Part shown: positions 16,299 to 60,713 of the stretch, one piece after another
How positions within the stretch are numbered: the first letter of the stretch is position 1
Layout: the number at the start of each line of letters is the position of its first letter
DNA from: Gammaproteobacteria bacterium
GTDB taxonomy: Bacteria; Pseudomonadota; Gammaproteobacteria; Burkholderiales; Gallionellaceae
Length of the DNA: 64,000 bases
Reading direction: 5' to 3'
NCBI GenBank assembly: GCA_018813765.1
Contig: JAHJBC010000012.1
Location: 62,001 to 126,000, forward strand
The notes under the pieces: model-generated
What the model was told of the DNA's origin: nothing
Databases searched by the model: none
Seen by the model: the letters and a program-made list of their open reading frames with translations, nothing else
Translations under genes and position numbers: made by a program

Positions 16299-18788
16299 AT
16301 GAACAGCAGAGCGTCACCGGAACATCGCAGTGCGGGCATGAGCAAGGAGGCGATCATGGTCTCGCTTGCCGATCACCTGATCTATTCCAACAGTAAATAC
16401 CCGGCCAACGCGACCACGCGCGACTGGTTCGAGACGGCGGCCCACAGCGTGCGCGACCGGCTGGTCGAGCGCTGGATGGAGACCATGCAGCGTTATTACG
16501 AACAGGATTCCAAGCGCATCTACTATTTGTCGCTGGAATTCCTGATGGGGCGCACGCTCAGCAACGCCATGCTCAACCTCGGCATGGACGAGCAGACGAA
16601 AGCGGCCCTTTACGAACTGGGGCAGGAGTTCGAGGCCGTCGCCGAGATCGAGTCCGACGCGGCGCTGGGCAATGGCGGCCTCGGTCGCCTCGCCGCCTGT
16701 TTCCTCGATTCCATGGCGACGCTGGATCTGCCCTGTTACGGCTACGGCATCCGCTACGAATACGGCATGTTCCGCCAGAGCATAGAAAGCGGCATGCAGG
16801 TTGAGCACCCCGACAACTGGCTGCGTTACGGCAATCCGTGGGAGTTTCCGCGTCCGGAACTGTTGTATCCGGTGAAGTTCGGCGGGCGGGTGGTGGAGTA
16901 CAAACATGAAGACGGTCACCTGCGCCATCACTGGGTGGATACCGACGATGTGATGGCGATGGCCTATGACACGCCCATCCCGGGGTACGGCGGCAATACG
17001 GTCAACAACATGCGGCTGTGGGCGGCGAAATCGTCGCGCGATTTCGAGCTGCGCTATTTCAATCAGGGCGACTATATCCAGGCCGTCGCCGACAAGAACG
17101 AGTCGGAGAACCTGTCCAAGGTGCTGTACCCGAACGACACCACCGAGATGGGGCGCGAACTGCGCTTGAAGCAGCAGTATTTCTTCGTCAGCGCCTCGCT
17201 GCAGGACATGCTCTACCGCTACAAGAAGAACCACGAGAGCTGGGTGCAACTGCCGGACAAGCTGGCCGTGCAGTTGAACGATACCCATCCGTCCATCGGC
17301 ATCGCCGAGATGATGCGCCTGCTGGTGGATGTCCATCACCAGACCTGGGATGAAGCGTGGAGCATGACCACGCGCATCTTTTCCTATACCAATCACACGT
17401 TGATGCCGGAAGCGCTGGAGACCTGGCCGGTGGCGATGTTCGAGACGCTGCTGCCGCGCCATCTGCAGATCATCTACGAGATCAACCACCGCTTCCTGCA
17501 ACAGGTGATGCACCATTTCCCCGGCGACGGGGCGTTGCTGCAGCGTCTGTCCATCATCGACGAGGGCGGCAGGCGCCGCATCCGCATGCCGCATCTGGCC
17601 ATCGTCGGCAGCCACACGGTGAACGGCGTTGCGGCACTGCATACCGAACTGATGAAGCGCACCATCTTCGCCGACTTCGAGCGCATCATGCCGGGCAAGT
17701 TCGTCAACATGACCAACGGGGTGACGCCGCGCCGCTGGCTCAATCAGGCCAACCCCGGATTGGCCAGGCTGATCACCGGGCGCATCGGCAAGGGCTGGGT
17801 GACCGATCTCGACCAGTTGCAGCAGTTGCGCCAGTACGCCGACGATGCCGAATTCCAGAAGGAGTTCCGTGCCGTCAAGCAGGCCAACAAGAGAGCGTTG
17901 GCCGAACTGATAAGCAAACGGCTCTGTATCGAGATCGACCCGACTTCACTGTTCGATATCCAGATCAAGCGCATTCACGAGTACAAGCGCCAGTTGCTCA
18001 ATGTGCTGCATGTCATCACGCTGTACAACCGCATCCGCAGCGGCACCTGCTCCGACATCGTGCCGCGCACGGTCATCATCGCCGGCAAGTCGGCACCCGG
18101 ATATGCGATGGCCAAGCTCATCATCCGGCTCATCAACGACGTCGCCGACATCGTCAACAACGACCAGCAGATCTGCGACAGGCTGAAGCTGGTGTTCATA
18201 CCCAACTACGATGTATCCAACGCCGAGCGCATCGTGCCGGCGGCCGACCTGTCCGAACAGATATCGACGGCCGGGACGGAAGCATCCGGCACCGGCAACA
18301 TGAAGCTGGCGCTGAACGGCGCGCTCACCATCGGCACGCTGGACGGGGCCAACATCGAGATACGCGAGGAGGTGGGGGCGGAGAATTTCTTCCTGTTCGG
18401 GCTTACCACGGACGAGGTGGAGGCGCTGCATCGCCAGGGATACGATGCCATGAGCTATTACCGGGGCAATGCCGAGTTGAAGCAGGCGCTGGATATGATC
18501 GCCTCCGGTTTCTTCTGTCCCGACGATTCGTCGCGCTATCAGGAGATAGTCGATGTGCTGCTCAAGAGCGGCGACCGCTTTCTGTTGCTGGCAGACTACG
18601 CGGCCTATGTCGCCTGCCAGGACAGGGTCGGCGAGCTGTATCGAGATACCGGGGAGTGGACGAAGCGCGCCATCCTGAACGTTGCCGGCATGGGAAAGTT
18701 CTCCAGCGACCGCACCATACGCCAGTATGCCGAACACATCTGGCATGTCGCCCCAATCCAGGCGCAAACCGACACAGGGCAAGCGTGA
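16299..18788 (+). CDS. glgP: Glycogen/maltodextrin phosphorylase
   Basis: This 829-residue enzyme releases glucose 1-phosphate from alpha-1,4 glucans. Family markers include YYLSLEFLMGRTL near 73, AALGNGGLGRLAACFLDSMA near 125, QLNDTHPSIGIAEMMRLL, the VNMTNGVTPRRWL stretch, and the PLP site EASGTGNMKLALNGA near 662, whose Lys binds the cofactor. GGGAGGT precedes the ATG by five bases. A 14-residue N-terminal extension comes before MSKEAIM, which may be an alternative start at 16338. Its stop overlaps the start of glk by one base, so glucan breakdown and glucose phosphorylation are coupled. Confidence 0.96.
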   Translation: MNSRASPEHRSAGMSKEAIMVSLADHLIYSNSKYPANATTRDWFETAAHSVRDRLVERWMETMQRYYEQDSKRIYYLSLEFLMGRTLSNAMLNLGMDEQTKAALYELGQEFEAVAEIESDAALGNGGLGRLAACFLDSMATLDLPCYGYGIRYEYGMFRQSIESGMQVEHPDNWLRYGNPWEFPRPELLYPVKFGGRVVEYKHEDGHLRHHWVDTDDVMAMAYDTPIPGYGGNTVNNMRLWAAKSSRDFELRYFNQGDYIQAVADKNESENLSKVLYPNDTTEMGRELRLKQQYFFVSASLQDMLYRYKKNHESWVQLPDKLAVQLNDTHPSIGIAEMMRLLVDVHHQTWDEAWSMTTRIFSYTNHTLMPEALETWPVAMFETLLPRHLQIIYEINHRFLQQVMHHFPGDGALLQRLSIIDEGGRRRIRMPHLAIVGSHTVNGVAALHTELMKRTIFADFERIMPGKFVNMTNGVTPRRWLNQANPGLARLITGRIGKGWVTDLDQLQQLRQYADDAEFQKEFRAVKQANKRALAELISKRLCIEIDPTSLFDIQIKRIHEYKRQLLNVLHVITLYNRIRSGTCSDIVPRTVIIAGKSAPGYAMAKLIIRLINDVADIVNNDQQICDRLKLVFIPNYDVSNAERIVPAADLSEQISTAGTEASGTGNMKLALNGALTIGTLDGANIEIREEVGAENFFLFGLTTDEVEALHRQGYDAMSYYRGNAELKQALDMIASGFFCPDDSSRYQEIVDVLLKSGDRFLLLADYAAYVACQDRVGELYRDTGEWTKRAILNVAGMGKFSSDRTIRQYAEHIWHVAPIQAQTDTGQA

Positions 18789-19876
18789 TGGTGCGGGTGA
18801 TCGCGGGCGACATCGGTGGAACCAAGACCCGGTTGGCGCTTGCAGTGGTCGAAGGACCGCGAGTGCGGCCACGTGACGGTGGGGCGGAGCCCTCTGGTGC
18901 GGGAGTGGCCGCATCGCACCTTCTCCCGCAAACGGCTGGCTTCGCCAGTAACGTGTCGAAGGTGCTCATCGAGATCGAGACGGAATTTCAGAGCGGCAAT
19001 TTCCCCACCTTCGACGCTTTACTGGCGGATTTCCTGAAGGACAGGCATACGCCCGAGCGCGCCGCTTTCGGCATTGCCGGGCCGGTACTGAACCGCATCG
19101 GCAGCGCCACCAATCTGCCCTGGCGCATAGAGGCGGATGCCTTGCAGCGGCGCTTCGGTTTCGGGGTTTGCACCTTGCTCAACGATCTGGAGGCGACGGC
19201 CTGCGGCATCCCGGCCCTCGGGCCGGATGACCTGCTGGCGTTGCGGCCGGGCGCGGTGGGTGCTTGCGGCAACGCCGCCGTGATCGCCGCCGGAACCGGT
19301 CTGGGCGAAGCCGGGTTGTACTGGGACGGGCAGCGGCACCATCCCTATGCCAGCGAAGGCGGCCATGCCAGCTTCAGCCCGCAGGACGAACTGGAGATAG
19401 GCTTCCTGCGCCACCTGCAACTGCGCCACCCCCATGTCAGTTGGGAGCGCGTGGTCTCCGGCATGGGGCTGTGCAGTTTGCACGAGTTCATGCGCATCTA
19501 TCGCGACCAGCCCGCACCGCAGTGGCTGGTGCAGGAGATGCAGAAGGGTGATGCGGCAGCCGTCATTTCGAAGGCGGCGCTGGACGGCAGCGACGCGATC
19601 TGCGTCGAGACGTTGCAGCGTTTCGTGCGCTTGTATGGCGCCGAAGCGGGCAACCTGGCGCTCAAGACGATGAGCCGTGGCGGACTGTATGTAGGCGGCG
19701 GCATCGCGCCGAAGATTTTGCCGCTGCTGAAGGGCGAGACCTTCGCCGAAGCCTTCCTGGGCAAGGGCCGCATGCGTGCGCTGCTGGAAACGATGCCGTT
19801 GCGGGTGATCCTCAACGATCGCGCCGCCCTGTATGGCGCGGCGCTGATCGCGGCGGAAGGCGGCATGAATAGTTGA
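18788..19876 (+). CDS. glk: Glucokinase with in-frame palindromic insert
   Basis: Glucokinase of the ROK-unrelated bacterial Glk family, 362 residues: phosphate loop GDIGGTKTRLAL near 8, FGIAGPVLNRI near 95, NDLEATACGIPAL with the catalytic Asp, AAGTGLGEAGL and EGGHASFSPQ near 190, and GGGIAPKILPLL late. Residues about 25-57 are foreign to the family: they come from a palindromic element also found in the ABC exporter at 23.4 kb and in cysN. Without it the first strands read ALAVVEGPR to KVLIEIETEF, a normal glucokinase turn, so the insert falls in a surface loop. Coupled to glgP. Confidence 0.92.
   Translation: MVRVIAGDIGGTKTRLALAVVEGPRVRPRDGGAEPSGAGVAASHLLPQTAGFASNVSKVLIEIETEFQSGNFPTFDALLADFLKDRHTPERAAFGIAGPVLNRIGSATNLPWRIEADALQRRFGFGVCTLLNDLEATACGIPALGPDDLLALRPGAVGACGNAAVIAAGTGLGEAGLYWDGQRHHPYASEGGHASFSPQDELEIGFLRHLQLRHPHVSWERVVSGMGLCSLHEFMRIYRDQPAPQWLVQEMQKGDAAAVISKAALDGSDAICVETLQRFVRLYGAEAGNLALKTMSRGGLYVGGGIAPKILPLLKGETFAEAFLGKGRMRALLETMPLRVILNDRAALYGAALIAAEGGMNS
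18859..18958. repeat. Protein-coding palindromic element, copy 1 (in glk)
   Basis: The 63-bp core 18896-18958 starts GGTGCGGGAGTG and contains CTCCCGCAAACGGCTG, the hairpin CTGGC-TTC-GCCAG and the end AGTAACGTGTCG. An outer arm at 18859-18871 pairs with 18906-18917. It is read in frame as GAGV...LPQTAGFASNVS. Confidence 0.9.
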
Positions 19877-22197: not shown

Positions 22198-22283
22198 CAA
22201 GAGTGTGCCGGGATCCTTCCCTCCCAGCGCTTTCTTGCTTCTCCTCCTGACTTGGGCATCCCGCGCGGATGCCCGTTTTTTTT
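22198..22283 (+). ncRNA. Candidate small RNA (about 86 nt)
   Basis: Between the sigma-54-type promoter and a strong terminator lies a short segment with no reading frame of note. It is CU-rich, with CCTTCCCTCCC and CTTCTCCTCCTGAC, the latter complementary to Shine-Dalgarno sequences. The terminator is GGGCATCC, a CGCGC loop and GGATGCCC followed by G and eight T residues. Transcript start near 22198 is set from the promoter spacing. No known RNA family was recognised. Confidence 0.5.
22254..22283 (+). terminator. Strong intrinsic terminator
   Basis: Perfect 8-bp stem GGGCATCC/GGATGCCC, five-base loop, eight T residues. It ends the candidate small RNA and could also stop read-through from the GGDEF-EAL gene. 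Confidence 0.88.
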
Positions 22284-22333: not shown

Positions 22334-24232
22334 ATGCGCTCCCTGTCTTCTTCAGCTTCTTCTTCTCCTTCCGCATCCCACGCCGAGAACCGCGCCGACT
22401 GGCAGACCCTGCGTTCGCTGATTCCTTACCTGCTGGAGTTCAGGTGGCGCGTCGTGATCGCGCTCTCCCTGCTGGTGCTGGCCAAGCTCGCCAACGTGAC
22501 CGTGCCGCTGGCGCTGAAGGAGATCATCGACGCGCTGGACCCGAAACAGGCGGTGCTCATGGTGCCGGTTGCCCTCGTCATCGGCTACGGCGTGCTGCGC
22601 ATGCTCAGCACGCTGTTTGGCGAATTGCGCGACGCCATCTTCGCCAAGGTCACGCAACGCGCGATTCGGCGCCTGGCGCTGCAGGTGTTCGAGCACCTGC
22701 ACAGCCTTTCGCTGCGCTTCCATCTAGACCGCCAGACCGGCGGGGTGTCGCGCGACATCGAGCGCGGCACGCGCGGCATCAGTTTCCTGCTCAACTTCAT
22801 GCTGTTCAACATCCTGCCCACACTGCTGGAGATCGGGCTGGTGGCCATCATCCTGTTCACCAAATACGATGCCCGCTTCGCCATCATCACCTTCGTCACG
22901 CTACTGGCCTACATCGCCTTCACCCTGATCGTCACCGAGTGGCGCATGGTGGTGCGCCGCTCGATGAACGAGCTCGATTCCAAGGCCAACACCCGTGCCA
23001 TCGACAGCCTGCTCAACTATGAGACGGTCAAGTATTTCGGCAACGAACGCTACGAGGCGCAACGCTACGACCAGAACATGCAGCACTGGGAGGTGGCGGC
23101 GGTGCGCAACTCCACCTCGCTGGCGCTGCTGAACGCGGGGCAGAGCGTCATCGTTGCTGTCGGCGTCACGCTGCTGATGTTGCTGGCCGCCGAGCAGGTG
23201 GTGGATGGCACGATGACGGTGGGCGACCTGGTGCTGGTCAACGTATTCATGATCCAGTTGTACATGCCGCTGCATTTTCTCGGCTTCGTCTACCGCGAGA
23301 TCCGCCACGCGCTGGCCGACATGGAGAAGATGTTCGGCCTGCTGCACGAGAATCGCGAGATCGCCGATGCGCCGGATGCACGCCAACTCGTGGTGGGCAA
23401 GGGTGCGGTGCGGTCACGACACGGTGCGGCGGAGCCGACGGGTGCGGGAGTGACCGCATCGCACCCCCTCCCGCAAACGGCTGTCTTCGACAGTAACGTG
23501 TCGGGGGTGCGATTTGAAGGGGTCAACTTCGCCTATGAGGCCGACCGCCAGATATTGTTCGATGTGAGTTTCGAGATACCGGAAGGTCATACCGTCGCGG
23601 TGGTGGGGTCGAGCGGGGCGGGAAAATCCACGCTGTCGCGTCTGCTGTTCCGCTTCTACGATGTGCAACAGGGGCGCATCCTGCTCAACGGGCAGGATAT
23701 CCGCAGCGTGACGCAGGCCAGCCTGCGCGCGGCCATCGGCATCGTGCCGCAGGATACGGTGCTGTTCAACGACACCATCTATTACAACATCGCCTACGGC
23801 CGCCCCGACGCGACGCGCGAGGAGATCGTCGCGGCAGCGCAGGCGGCGCATATCCATTCCTTCGTTGAATCGCTGCCGCAGGGTTACGAGACGACGGTGG
23901 GCGAGCGCGGATTGAAGCTCTCCGGCGGCGAGAAGCAGCGCGTGGCGATCGCCCGCGCCATCCTGAAGAATCCTGCGATATTGATCTTCGACGAGGCGAC
24001 TTCTGCGCTCGATTCCAAGTCGGAAAAGGCCATCCAGGCCGAATTGCGCGCCATCGCGCAGAACCGCACCACGCTGGTCATTGCGCACCGTTTGTCGACT
24101 GTGGTCGACGCTCATCAGATTCTGGTGCTGGATAAAGGCCGCGTCATCGAACGTGGAACGCACCGTAACTTGTTGGAATTAAACGGGATGTACGCGCAGA
24201 TGTGGGCTTTGCAGCAGCAGGAGGAGCGCTGA
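22334..24232 (+). CDS. Atm1-type ABC exporter with in-frame palindromic insert
   Basis: A 632-residue half-transporter, membrane domain first. It has six helices (about 30-330) and family features of the Atm1/heavy-metal-tolerance group such as IERGTRGISFLLNFMLFN and LLNYETVKYFGNERYE. The nucleotide domain has Walker A GSSGAGKSTLSRL, signature LSGGEKQRVAIAR, Walker B ILIFDEATSAL and the H-loop AHRLSTV. Such transporters export glutathione-linked iron-sulfur or metal compounds from the cytoplasm. Residues about 357-390, between the membrane and ATPase domains, are an insert encoded by the same palindromic element as in glk and cysN. The ATG at 22334 follows a TATAAT at 22301; a GTG frame upstream would only add non-family sequence. 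Confidence 0.9.
   Translation: MRSLSSSASSSPSASHAENRADWQTLRSLIPYLLEFRWRVVIALSLLVLAKLANVTVPLALKEIIDALDPKQAVLMVPVALVIGYGVLRMLSTLFGELRDAIFAKVTQRAIRRLALQVFEHLHSLSLRFHLDRQTGGVSRDIERGTRGISFLLNFMLFNILPTLLEIGLVAIILFTKYDARFAIITFVTLLAYIAFTLIVTEWRMVVRRSMNELDSKANTRAIDSLLNYETVKYFGNERYEAQRYDQNMQHWEVAAVRNSTSLALLNAGQSVIVAVGVTLLMLLAAEQVVDGTMTVGDLVLVNVFMIQLYMPLHFLGFVYREIRHALADMEKMFGLLHENREIADAPDARQLVVGKGAVRSRHGAAEPTGAGVTASHPLPQTAVFDSNVSGVRFEGVNFAYEADRQILFDVSFEIPEGHTVAVVGSSGAGKSTLSRLLFRFYDVQQGRILLNGQDIRSVTQASLRAAIGIVPQDTVLFNDTIYYNIAYGRPDATREEIVAAAQAAHIHSFVESLPQGYETTVGERGLKLSGGEKQRVAIARAILKNPAILIFDEATSALDSKSEKAIQAELRAIAQNRTTLVIAHRLSTVVDAHQILVLDKGRVIERGTHRNLLELNGMYAQMWALQQQEER
23402..23503. repeat. Protein-coding palindromic element, copy 2 (in ABC exporter)
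   Basis: Core 23441-23503, 63 bp like copy 1. Outer arms 23402-23416 and 23451-23465 match at 14 of 15 positions; CGACACG (23417-23423) mirrors CGTGTCG at the end; the small hairpin reads CTGTC-TTC-GACAG, with a paired change against copies 1 and 3. Confidence 0.9.
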
Positions 24233-29731: not shown

Positions 29732-32011
<2,280 letters not shown>

Positions 32012-52868: not shown

Positions 52869-52981
52869 GTCATCCCGGCGTAGGCCGGGATCCAGTCAGA
52901 ATACAAATCCCCGCAACGCGGGACAACGCCAAAAGGCATGTTGAATAAAACCGCTGGATTCCGGCCTTCGCCGGAATGACG
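52869..52981. repeat. Interspersed inverted repeat, family 1 (copy 2)
   Basis: Arms 52869-52896 and 52954-52981 (CGTCATCCCGGCG and CGCCGGAATGACG types) as at 926-1041. It lies between cysD and cysN, 28 bases before the cysN start. Confidence 0.88.
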
Positions 52982-53008: not shown

Positions 53009-54361
53009 ATGAGCAATACGACACAACTACTCCGCTTCATCACCGCCGGTTCCGTCGACGACGGCAAAAGCACCCTCATCGGCCGCCTGCTGCACGATTC
53101 GAAATCCATCTTCGAAGACCAGTTCTCGGCCATCTCAAAAACCAGCGAGAAGCGCGGCATGGCGGCGGTCGATCTGTCGCTGCTCACCGACGGTCTGCAA
53201 GCCGAGCGCGAACAGGGCATCACCATCGACGTGGCCTATCGCTACTTCGCCACGCCGAAACGCAAGTTCATCATCGGCGATACGCCGGGGCATGAGCAGT
53301 ACACGCGCAACATGGTAACGGCTGCCTCTACTGCAAATCTGGTGGTGATCCTGATCGACGCGCGCAAGGGCGTGCTGACGCAGACGCGCCGCCATAGTTT
53401 TCTGGCCAGTCTGGTCGGGGTGCCGCATGTGGTGCTGGCGGTGAACAAGATGGATATGGTCGATTACTCGCAGGAGCGTTTCGACGAGATCGTGGCCAAG
53501 TACAAGGTCTTCGCGGCGCAACTTGGTTTGCACGACGTACATTGCATCCCGCTTTCCGCGCTGAACGGCGACATGGTGGTGGACAGGGGCGACAAGCTCG
53601 ACTGGTACAAAGGCCCGGCACTGCTGGAACTGCTGGAGAAGGTGGAGATCGACCACGACGTAAACACCAGCGACTTCCGCTTCCCGGTGCAGTGGGTATG
53701 CCGCCCGCAGACCGACGAGCATCATGACTTCAGAGGCTTTGCCGGGCGCATCGAAGCGGGCGAAGTATCGGTGGGGGACGAGATCACCATCCTGCCGTCC
53801 GCCCGCACGACCAGGGTCAAAGAGATATCCACCTACGACGGCAAGTTGCAGACCGCATTCGCGCCACAATCGGTGACGCTCACGCTGGAAGATGAGATCG
53901 ACGTATCGCGTGGCGACATGTTCGTCAGTGCGGACGGCACGACACGGTGCGCGAACGCGGCGGGTGCGGGAGTGCCGTCCGACGGCCCCCTCCCGCAAAC
54001 GGCTGGCTCCGCCAGTAACGTGTCGGGGGCCGGCACGCATTTTCCAAAAGTGAGGAAGGAGTTTGAGGCCACCCTGTGCTGGCTGTCCGAGTCCCCGCTG
54101 GACAAGAACCGCAAGTACCTGGTCAAACATACCACGCGCACGGCGAAGGCGCTGTTCTCGCGCCTCGACTACCGGGTGGACGTAAACACGCTGGAGCGGC
54201 ACAGTGCGGACAAGCTGCATATGAACGACATTGCACGCGTCGCGATCAAGACCCAACAGCCGCTGGTGTTCGACAGCTACGAGATCGACCGTGCCACCGG
54301 CAGCTTCATCGTCATCGACGAGGCGAGCAACAACACCGTGGCGGCGGGCATGATCGCCTGA
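53009..54361 (+). CDS. cysN: Sulfate adenylyltransferase subunit 1 with in-frame palindromic insert
   Basis: A 450-residue EF-Tu-like GTPase that drives APS synthesis with CysD. G-domain motifs: [20 protein letters not shown] near 12-31, [15 protein letters not shown] (switch I region), [11 protein letters not shown] near 93, NKMDMVD near 147. Domains II and III follow. There is no fused CysC kinase, which agrees with the APS-type CysH. Residues about 310-345 carry the third copy of the palindromic element of glk and the ABC exporter, between [12 protein letters not shown] and [15 protein letters not shown] in domain II/III. All GTPase motifs are intact. Confidence 0.94.
53931..54025. repeat. 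Protein-coding palindromic element, copy 3 (in cysN)
   Basis: Core 53963-54025 (63 bp, same frame as copies 1 and 2). Its outer stem is different in sequence but perfect: CGGACGGCAC (53931-53940) with GTGCCGTCCG (53972-53981). Inner hairpin CTGGC-TCC-GCCAG. Confidence 0.9.
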
Positions 54362-60340: not shown

Positions 60341-60713
60341 TCGGTGCGGTCTTTCAAAGGTGCGAGTAAGAACATCCGCTTCTGGCTACGAAGCAGACCG
60401 TCAAGAGAATTTCAATGAGTGAGATGGGGCCAGCATCGCAATAGTTTTCGAGAAGTGTAGTAATCAAAAACAAAACCGAAGCTGACCCGTTTGAATTTGT
60501 AATCAAAAACAAAACCGAAGCTGACCCGTTTGAATTTCACTAAATGTGATGCCGACCCCATATTGCAGTGTTTGCGGGGTCAGGACGAAACATCCATATC
60601 CTTCGGCATATATGCTCAAGCCTAGAATTGTGGTTGAATGATCATTGTGCGCGATCAAGCAGCGCAGCGCCGGTTAGAGCAAAGTTAGACTCACATAACG
60701 GAGAACGCGCGAC
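60341..60713. other. Gap with tandem repeat, no gene
   Basis: A 373-base stretch with no supported gene. It holds a perfect 39-bp tandem duplication (60460-60498, 60499-60537), fragments such as GATGCCGACCCCATATTG and GCGGGGTCAGGACG that recall repeat/transposase borders, and near its end CCGGTTAGAGCAAAGTTAGAC, which looks like the 3' end of an attC-type site. GGAG 10 bases before 60714 is the next ribosome site. Confidence 0.6.
60460..60537 (+). repeat. 39-bp perfect tandem duplication
   Basis: The unit starts GTAATCAAAAACAAAACCGA and ends CTGACCCGTTTGAATTT; the two copies are identical and abut. Confidence 0.95.

Follow-up and report, generated by a model that had tools for sequence, protein, structure and literature searches.

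The closest described counterparts of the repeats analysed here are the Rickettsia palindromic elements (RPEs), which PMC2229807 and PMC10969869 present as palindromic repeats of ~105–150 bp that lie, with the reading frame kept, within numerous conserved but mutually unrelated genes and also in intergenic regions, with no demonstrated mover. The REP, BIME and REPIN repeats of the GTAG class, which are linked to RAYT, are depicted in PMC3733652 as inverted dimers of a hairpin unit, present in many copies, some of them intragenic. The same paper describes CGTC-tagged REPs, including RPE-4 and RPE-6, as intragenic dimers that encode 20–30 residues and apparently lack a dedicated transposase; their hairpins have an 8–9 bp stem with A-T pairs at stem positions 1–2, a 4–5 nt loop and a CGTC, TGTC or CCTC tag. 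Bacterial MITEs (ERIC, YPAL, NEMIS and RUP) are, according to PMC2229807, small mobile repeats, many of which carry short target duplications.

Here, we describe a palindromic element recognized in three unrelated genes of a 64,000-nucleotide stretch of a Gallionellaceae genome (the window hereafter). Like RPEs, the Gallionella-group element is palindromic, repeated, in frame in unrelated genes and also intergenic, its ~101 nt placing it just below the RPE size range. The two are set side by side by description only; the present family belongs to the Gallionella group and others of its order rather than to Rickettsia. It further differs in having two hairpins with outer stems that are free in sequence yet covary, a near-fixed unpaired core and a GC junction, together with recurring gene-border copies and insert DNA that is conserved beyond the third codon positions of its hosts. 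With the REP, BIME and REPIN repeats, it shares inverted hairpin dimers in many copies, some within genes, but it lacks a GTAG at the hairpin foot (GTAG occurs only in the loop of some copies), has a variable outer stem and a longer composite unit, and the core of its first hairpin (SL1) was absent from the Y1 loci as first fetched. The CGTC REPs resemble it as in-gene dimers that add residues, whereas their tag and short loop are not found here, the outer arms mostly ending in GC and enclosing a core of ~32–34 nt. In contrast to MITEs, there is no common fixed terminal inverted repeat, the terminal arms being copy-specific, and no partner IS was found in a scan of 2,016,345 bases of loci for element halves and an ORF reading of three loci with neighbouring copies. 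A literature search of open-licence papers returned the RPE and REP papers and no earlier description of a Gallionella-group element family; a covarying stem combined with in-place DNA-level conservation was likewise not found described in that search, and otherwise the element works like RPEs.

Three related insertions in the window

Direct reading confirmed three in-frame 63-bp stretches, at 18896–18958 in glk, 23441–23503 in an Atm1-type ABC exporter gene and 53963–54025 in cysN, each encoding the pattern GAGV-x7-LPQTA-x3-SNVS to which the first-pass annotation had drawn attention. The encoded peptides are GAGVAASHLLPQTAGFASNVS (glk), GAGVTASHPLPQTAVFDSNVS (exporter) and a 21-residue one (cysN). 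Chance similarity among the three copies is ruled out by blastn of the glk copy against its own genome, which gave E values of 1.9e-63 for itself, 3.9e-29 for the Atm1 copy and 3.2e-11 for the cysN copy. The 63-bp core had been taken as the unit; that sequence is real, but it is just part of a larger element of two hairpins, SL1 and SL2, which a covariance model delimits at 101 nt in the glk and Atm1 copies and at 100 nt in the cysN copy.

All three copies lie on the minus strand, in host genes on the plus strand. In glk (18788–19876), the full element spans 18865–18965, a net insert of 99 nt beside GTGC with empty sites in relatives. Its SL2 (18865–18912) has the outer stem GCGGCCAC/GTGGCCGC around the SL2 core, and its SL1 (18916–18965) has the outer stem GCACCTTC/GAAGGTGC around the core GACACGTTAC-hairpin-GCCGTTTGCGGGA; the Glucokinase domain match starts at residue 63, past the insert. 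The copy in the exporter gene (22493–24232, with an uncertain start and an ORF that opens at 22205) occupies 23410–23510, with SL2 at 23410–23457 (GCGGTCAC/GTGACCGC) and SL1 at 23461–23510 (GCACCCCC/GGGGGTGC), and falls between the ABC_membrane and ABC_tran domains. In cysN (53009–54361, ORF opening at 52976), the element covers 53933–54032 with diverged ends, between a weak, sub-cut-off match to EF-Tu domain 2 and the C-terminal domain.

The window holds other repeats as well. An inverted pair of CGTCATTCCGGC-type repeats (926–984 and 52923–52981) resembles the described CGTC REPs, a perfect 31-bp inverted repeat with a 20-nt loop lies at 31930–32011, and an exact 39-bp tandem duplication lies at 60460–60537.

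Architecture of the element

On the strand opposite to the one read in the first-pass annotation (the latter termed the reading strand below), the element runs GC-N6, a near-invariant core of ~34 nt, N6'-GC, a spacer of mostly 3 nt, GC-N6, a second core and N6'-GC. SL2 is a diverged inverted copy of SL1, and the 8-bp outer stems vary from copy to copy while retaining their complementarity. The two inner arms complement the element's own ends, and both complement the same strand. Each insertion brings a net gain of 99 nt, or 33 codons, with GC flanking both sides; tandem copies share a GC, and the resulting 2-nt overlap yields a 99-nt period (three pairs). An Rfam search of ten loci at E values up to 1 returned no match on the element, only a tRNA and one match below the gathering score, both elsewhere in the loci.

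Five loci (L302, L313, L365, L373 and L377) combine the usual SL1 with a different SL2 core; since the outer SL2 arms still pair in several of them, the element halves look modular. A second short palindromic family of ~54–60 nt (ATAACCAGCGACTTG..hairpin..TAGTCGAATGGCT) is nested in or beside the SL1 of several copies (L042, L076, L084, L101, L103, L136, L138 and L140). The copies ending in GTCGCGGGATGT (e.g. L281, L311, L317 and L358) resemble one another and form a subfamily found with G-rich flanks in several Nitrosomonadales assemblies; many of them lie outside called genes.

Distribution within and beyond the genome

Nucleotide-level searches extended beyond the window recovered ten element places in the same genome (3,142,116 bases in 13 contigs; covariance model built from five copies, E up to 1) and many further copies in relatives. 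Owing to the near-symmetry of the element, several of the ten were matched on each strand. Outside the window, they comprise in-frame copies in a peptide-deformylase gene (C11:33376) and in an ORF without a Pfam match (C12:337714), a copy at the tolQ-tolR border (C3:77875), two outside clear genes (C12:571645 and C8:321830) and a half copy (C4:331897). The remaining one, at C12:2560–2714 (L042), keeps the frame of an ORF that we take to resemble a surface repeat protein, has a TAG stop inside and carries a nested second palindrome.

After removal of opposite-strand matches at the same place and of identical element-plus-flank entries, we collected 223 distinct copies; most come from Gallionella-group genomes, and diverged relatives occur in other parts of the order. 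Among 61 genomes (the own genome and 60 relatives), 36 had matches at E values up to 0.01, namely 35 of the 37 of its own family (genera g1–g4) and one from another family. An order-wide sample gave matches at E values up to 1e-5 in 17 of 399 genomes and 10 of 158 genera, and 12 of the 17 genomes lie outside the own family. The copies read outside that family are for the most part a divergent form of 102 nt; two (L460 and L462) show clear symmetry. An exact search for the SL1 core in named genomes found at least 117 stretches; among the matches listed, 105 of 117 records, counted by eye, bear Gallionella-group or Nitrosomonadales names, and the remaining 12 those of Proteobacteria, Betaproteobacteria, Burkholderiales, Sulfuricaulis and Gammaproteobacteria.

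An origin from plasmids or phages was set aside, as the Atm1 copy had no match in 72,556 plasmid and 50,697 phage records; yet the SL1 core is present in four IMG/VR viral contigs. In one of these, a copy (L387, 7123–7223) adjoins an apparent large-terminase gene, an identity that we assign by reading, and phages may thus carry the element.

Empty sites and the insertion target

The insert residues, annotated as foreign to all three protein families, are indeed absent at the same place from 22 of 23 glk, 24 of 29 Atm1-type and 26 of 28 cysN loci of the genus. The glk insert is confined to the own genome. The Atm1-type insert is whole in four loci (G000, G013, G024 and G029), and the gene of G011 retains an internally deleted remnant that is still in frame. 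For cysN, one locus holds the whole insert and another (G004) the SL2 half alone. At the Atm1 site, many relatives without the insert have GTGC once, where the filled gene has it on both sides; the sequence surrounding the glk and cysN sites is more diverged among relatives than that at Atm1. Empty sites in relatives were found at all five loci examined.

The gene-border copies give a similar picture (hisF, hisI, tolQ, tolR and other gene names beyond those of Pfam are presumed identities, assigned by reading). In many element-free relatives, hisF-hisI and tolQ-tolR have an overlapping stop and start (ATGA), and the filled borders have GC-NNNN-ATGA on either side of the element, with the upstream gene's stop and the downstream gene's start both kept. 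By eye, 11 of 30 tolQ-tolR loci show the short junction with no trace of the element, and the others whole, partial or rearranged sequence. Inspection for target duplications found GC on both sides at in-gene sites and a 10-nt direct repeat at hisF-hisI and tolQ-tolR. Across 73 clusters, excluding tandem and non-GC-ended copies, GT preceding the GC was the commonest flank on the reading strand (27 of 73, versus 5.5% in the window).

Reading frames of in-gene copies

Among the 223 distinct copies, 211 had at least 150 nt of flank on each side and fell into 123 locus clusters. Coding calls were made with a codon-usage model trained on 16 window ORFs, which is strict and imperfect: flanks at C8:321830 have stops in every frame, yet the model called this copy in the same frame with a stop inside, and for the glk copy itself it recognized coding sequence on just one side. 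The same strand was coding on both sides of 58 copies: 41 keep a single open frame, 4 keep the frame but contain a stop, and 13 have differing frames on the two sides. Of the rest, 72 had a coding call on one side, 80 had none and one lay between opposite strands. Since the model leaves most copies undecided, these frame counts represent the clear cases only. By cluster majority, 28 of 123 clusters were in frame and open, and 29 contained at least one such copy. Reading the 13 differing-frame copies by eye placed 12 at gene borders, of which hisF-hisI and tolQ-tolR are the least ambiguous, and the last (L116) ahead of a start in an intergenic stretch; no mid-gene frameshift was seen among them. 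Among the clear cases, copies are not out of frame as often as in frame.

The SL1 half occupies the same frame in all 26 in-frame copies read on the reading strand (..LPQ-A--ASNVS..), and 13 of the 15 in-frame copies read the other way share one frame, with an unrelated peptide. The shared frame first noticed in glk, the exporter gene and cysN is therefore genuine, but it is largely a consequence of the insertion target, because GT|GC is mostly read as GTG-C and another frame contains stops. In the 16 window ORFs, 130 of 174 GTGC occurrences are read as GTG-C; five of the six element frames are open in 71–80 of 99 distinct 101-nt copies, and the two alternatives to the used frame on the reading strand are open in only 16 and in 71 of the 99, respectively.

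A Pfam family was recovered for 31 of 33 host ORFs submitted, the other two having none. The hosts include peptide deformylase, PDH E1, GT28_C, FtsQ, RecG, PEP carboxylase, NuoF-type and Mur ligase families, as well as GlnE, RlmN, Aat, PrmA, PhoH, DapF and 2-oxoglutarate dehydrogenase. The idea of a lineage-specific family that spreads into coding genes while sparing their function is supported by the frames and empty sites, although the family is not limited to one lineage (the 17 of 399 genomes above) and many copies lie outside genes or in contexts the model does not settle. That function is spared appears probable from the intact reading frames and conserved host domains.

Stem covariation and conservation in place

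A strict pattern parses 130 of the 223 distinct copies, with 40 kinds of a arm and 65 kinds of b arm. In these, the a and b arms form on average 7.74 and 7.55 Watson–Crick pairs of 8, as against 5.11 and 4.56 with shuffled partners. In 94 SL1 cores found by the core pattern alone, the paired fraction is.80–.98 at stem positions 1–8 and then falls to.44 and.15, shuffled partners giving.37–.76 at positions 1–8; all six inner pairs are present in 58 of the 94. Twenty in-gene copies considered alone have 97.0% of stem cells paired (82.2% when shuffled, 30–58% when slid), with double changes in 18 of 28 pairs and a covariation of 0.428 versus 0.141; this set excludes the in-frame L365 and L313, which have a different SL2 core, and the structure was derived partly from two of its copies. 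In the full set of 99 distinct copies of 101 nt, Watson–Crick pairs fill 2076 of 2475 stem cells, a lower share than in the in-gene set. Their mismatches (59 G-T, 37 A-C) show no dependence on transcriptional direction; this test is weak, and so is the hint it gives against a role in mRNA.

Third codon positions were more conserved in the insert than in the host gene in all 16 between-species comparisons, drawn from nine clusters and excluding opposite-strand pairs and host identity under 0.45. At Atm1, across four species, third positions of the insert are 91–100% identical, as against 59–77% in the rest of the gene. In 6 of the 16 comparisons, residues of the host are better conserved than those of the insert. 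In-place compensatory double changes were seen in two pairs at Atm1 and three in a Mur-ligase cluster. Gene conversion or recurrent insertion into one site may account for part of this in-place conservation: only 35 of 50 copies have their nearest neighbour at the same site, and broken pairs outnumber compensated ones in the Mur-ligase and ExoIII-like clusters. The conservation of a folded shape inside many unrelated genes suggests that the extra protein loop counts for less than the fold of the DNA or RNA.

Candidate movers and alternative explanations

A Y1 (IS200/IS605-like) transposase of the RAYT/REP kind, moving the element as single-stranded DNA in the manner of a BIME-like dimer, is a possible but doubtful mover. 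The arrangement as an inverted dimer, with clear symmetry in L460 and L462, fits it, as do the occurrence of Y1 genes in 20 of 34 genus genomes, including 8 of the 10 with at least 14 matches, and two own-genome Y1 matches (one below the cut-off) 2–4 kb from copies; in stretches wider than those first fetched, the L235 and L236 copies lie 2–4 kb from Y1. Against this, Y1 is absent from 13 genomes with matches, including G004, G006, G015, G022, G028 and G032 (91–99% complete), and Y1 hits do not clearly track the matches (rank correlation 0.22, p 0.21, 34 genomes; counts here and for IS110 include both strands). A scan for the SL1 core in the 34 Y1 loci as first fetched, with up to ~1.5 kb on each side, found no occurrence, and the GTAG tag is missing from the hairpin foot. 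Two shared junction bases and inner arms complementary to the ends resemble IS110 and speak for a mover of that bridge-RNA type, using GC as its two-base core; we regard it as quite unlikely. IS110 hits do correlate with matches (0.49, p 0.003, 34 genomes) and occur in 8 of 10 genomes with at least 14 matches and 6 of 24 with fewer, but genome size correlates similarly (0.48, and 0.81 versus 0.58 for IS110 in the 21 genomes at least 90% complete), so that the link may reflect general mobile-element load. Moreover, both inner arms complement the same strand, and 18 genomes with matches have no IS110 hit, among them G029 (16 matches, 100% complete), G026 and G022. The notion that Y1 or IS110 is required in every genome with matches was set aside on these absences. 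Three loci with neighbouring copies (L273, L103 and L077) were read for ORFs, and in none do the copies bracket a transposase. A self-guided minimal mobile element, its inner arms being a reverse-complement copy of its own junction (a-GC-b) and its target chosen by arm base-pairing where the genome resembles the element ends, seems similarly improbable. Flanks match a copy's own arms better than those of other copies (permutation counts of 1 and 0 in 500 for the respective sides; 73 clusters), and the arm and the local sequence are identical at the hisF-hisI and tolQ-tolR borders, but most in-gene sites, glk included, show little match beyond GTGC.

Three further readings were weighed. Fold-back template switching at replication could correct the arms of an otherwise neutral palindrome without selection, and would explain why they are near-perfectly paired whatever their sequence; we hold it unlikely, since it leaves the near-invariant unpaired core and the third positions conserved beyond those of the host unexplained. 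The combination of variable stems and a conserved unpaired core resembles a ribozyme, and excision from the mRNA at the GC boundaries (GC|...|GC) would give a sequence like the empty site, leaving the protein without the insert. Under such RNA-level excision, frame and stops should be irrelevant, yet 41 of the 45 same-frame copies are open and none of the 13 differing-frame copies shifts frame within a gene; on this frame evidence, an mRNA-level intron was set aside as very improbable. The lack of an Rfam family in the ten loci also speaks against it, and the T that would create TAG occurs in none of 9 scored in-frame strand-A copies as opposed to 19 of 132 others, numbers too few for significance. 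Selection on the insert peptide itself, as a gain of protein function, is equally remote: the recurrence of one frame in the 26 reading-strand copies favours it, but the GT|GC target and the stop-containing frame account for most of the frame choice, other-strand copies give an unrelated peptide, and the hosts are unrelated.

A probable mobile palindromic family tolerated in genes

We consider it likely, with a probability of roughly 0.8, that these copies constitute a family of non-autonomous mobile palindromic elements of ~99 nt net, with two hairpins and entry at GC, tolerated in genes and under constraint on their fold. This reading brings together the many unrelated sites with empty counterparts, the 99-nt tandem period, the stem covariation, the frames and the third-position conservation. 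Copies would enter at a GC dinucleotide, most often GT|GC on the reading strand, leaving GC on either side; an enzyme supplied in trans would probably move them. With a usual length of 33 codons and five of the six frames mostly stop-free, in-gene copies are translatable; those in a tolerable loop or linker would be translated as ~33 extra residues, and among in-gene copies only these would survive selection. The constraint would act on a folded single strand of DNA or RNA rather than on the peptide, in keeping with outer stems that are free in sequence but paired and an unpaired core that is near-fixed, and its simplest cause would be recognition by a putative enzyme. Weighing against this mobile-family reading, no mover was found, and ten genomes with matches lack Y1 and IS110 alike, including four (G004, G006, G022 and G032) whose completeness is 98% or more; the codon model gives 152 of 211 copies a coding call on just one side or on none; and the own-genome copy at C12:2560 brings a stop into an open frame. 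The residue-level comparisons, the incomplete pairing over all copies and the weak strand test count on the same side.

The family offers tens of natural loop insertions in core enzymes alongside matching versions that lack the insert, and raises the testable question of why gene-internal insert nucleotides are kept more strictly than the third codon positions of their hosts. Protein-coding palindromic elements were known chiefly from Rickettsia, with its small intracellular genomes; a second set is now found in free-living iron oxidisers, so the entry of DNA into proteins by way of palindromic elements is a recurring route.
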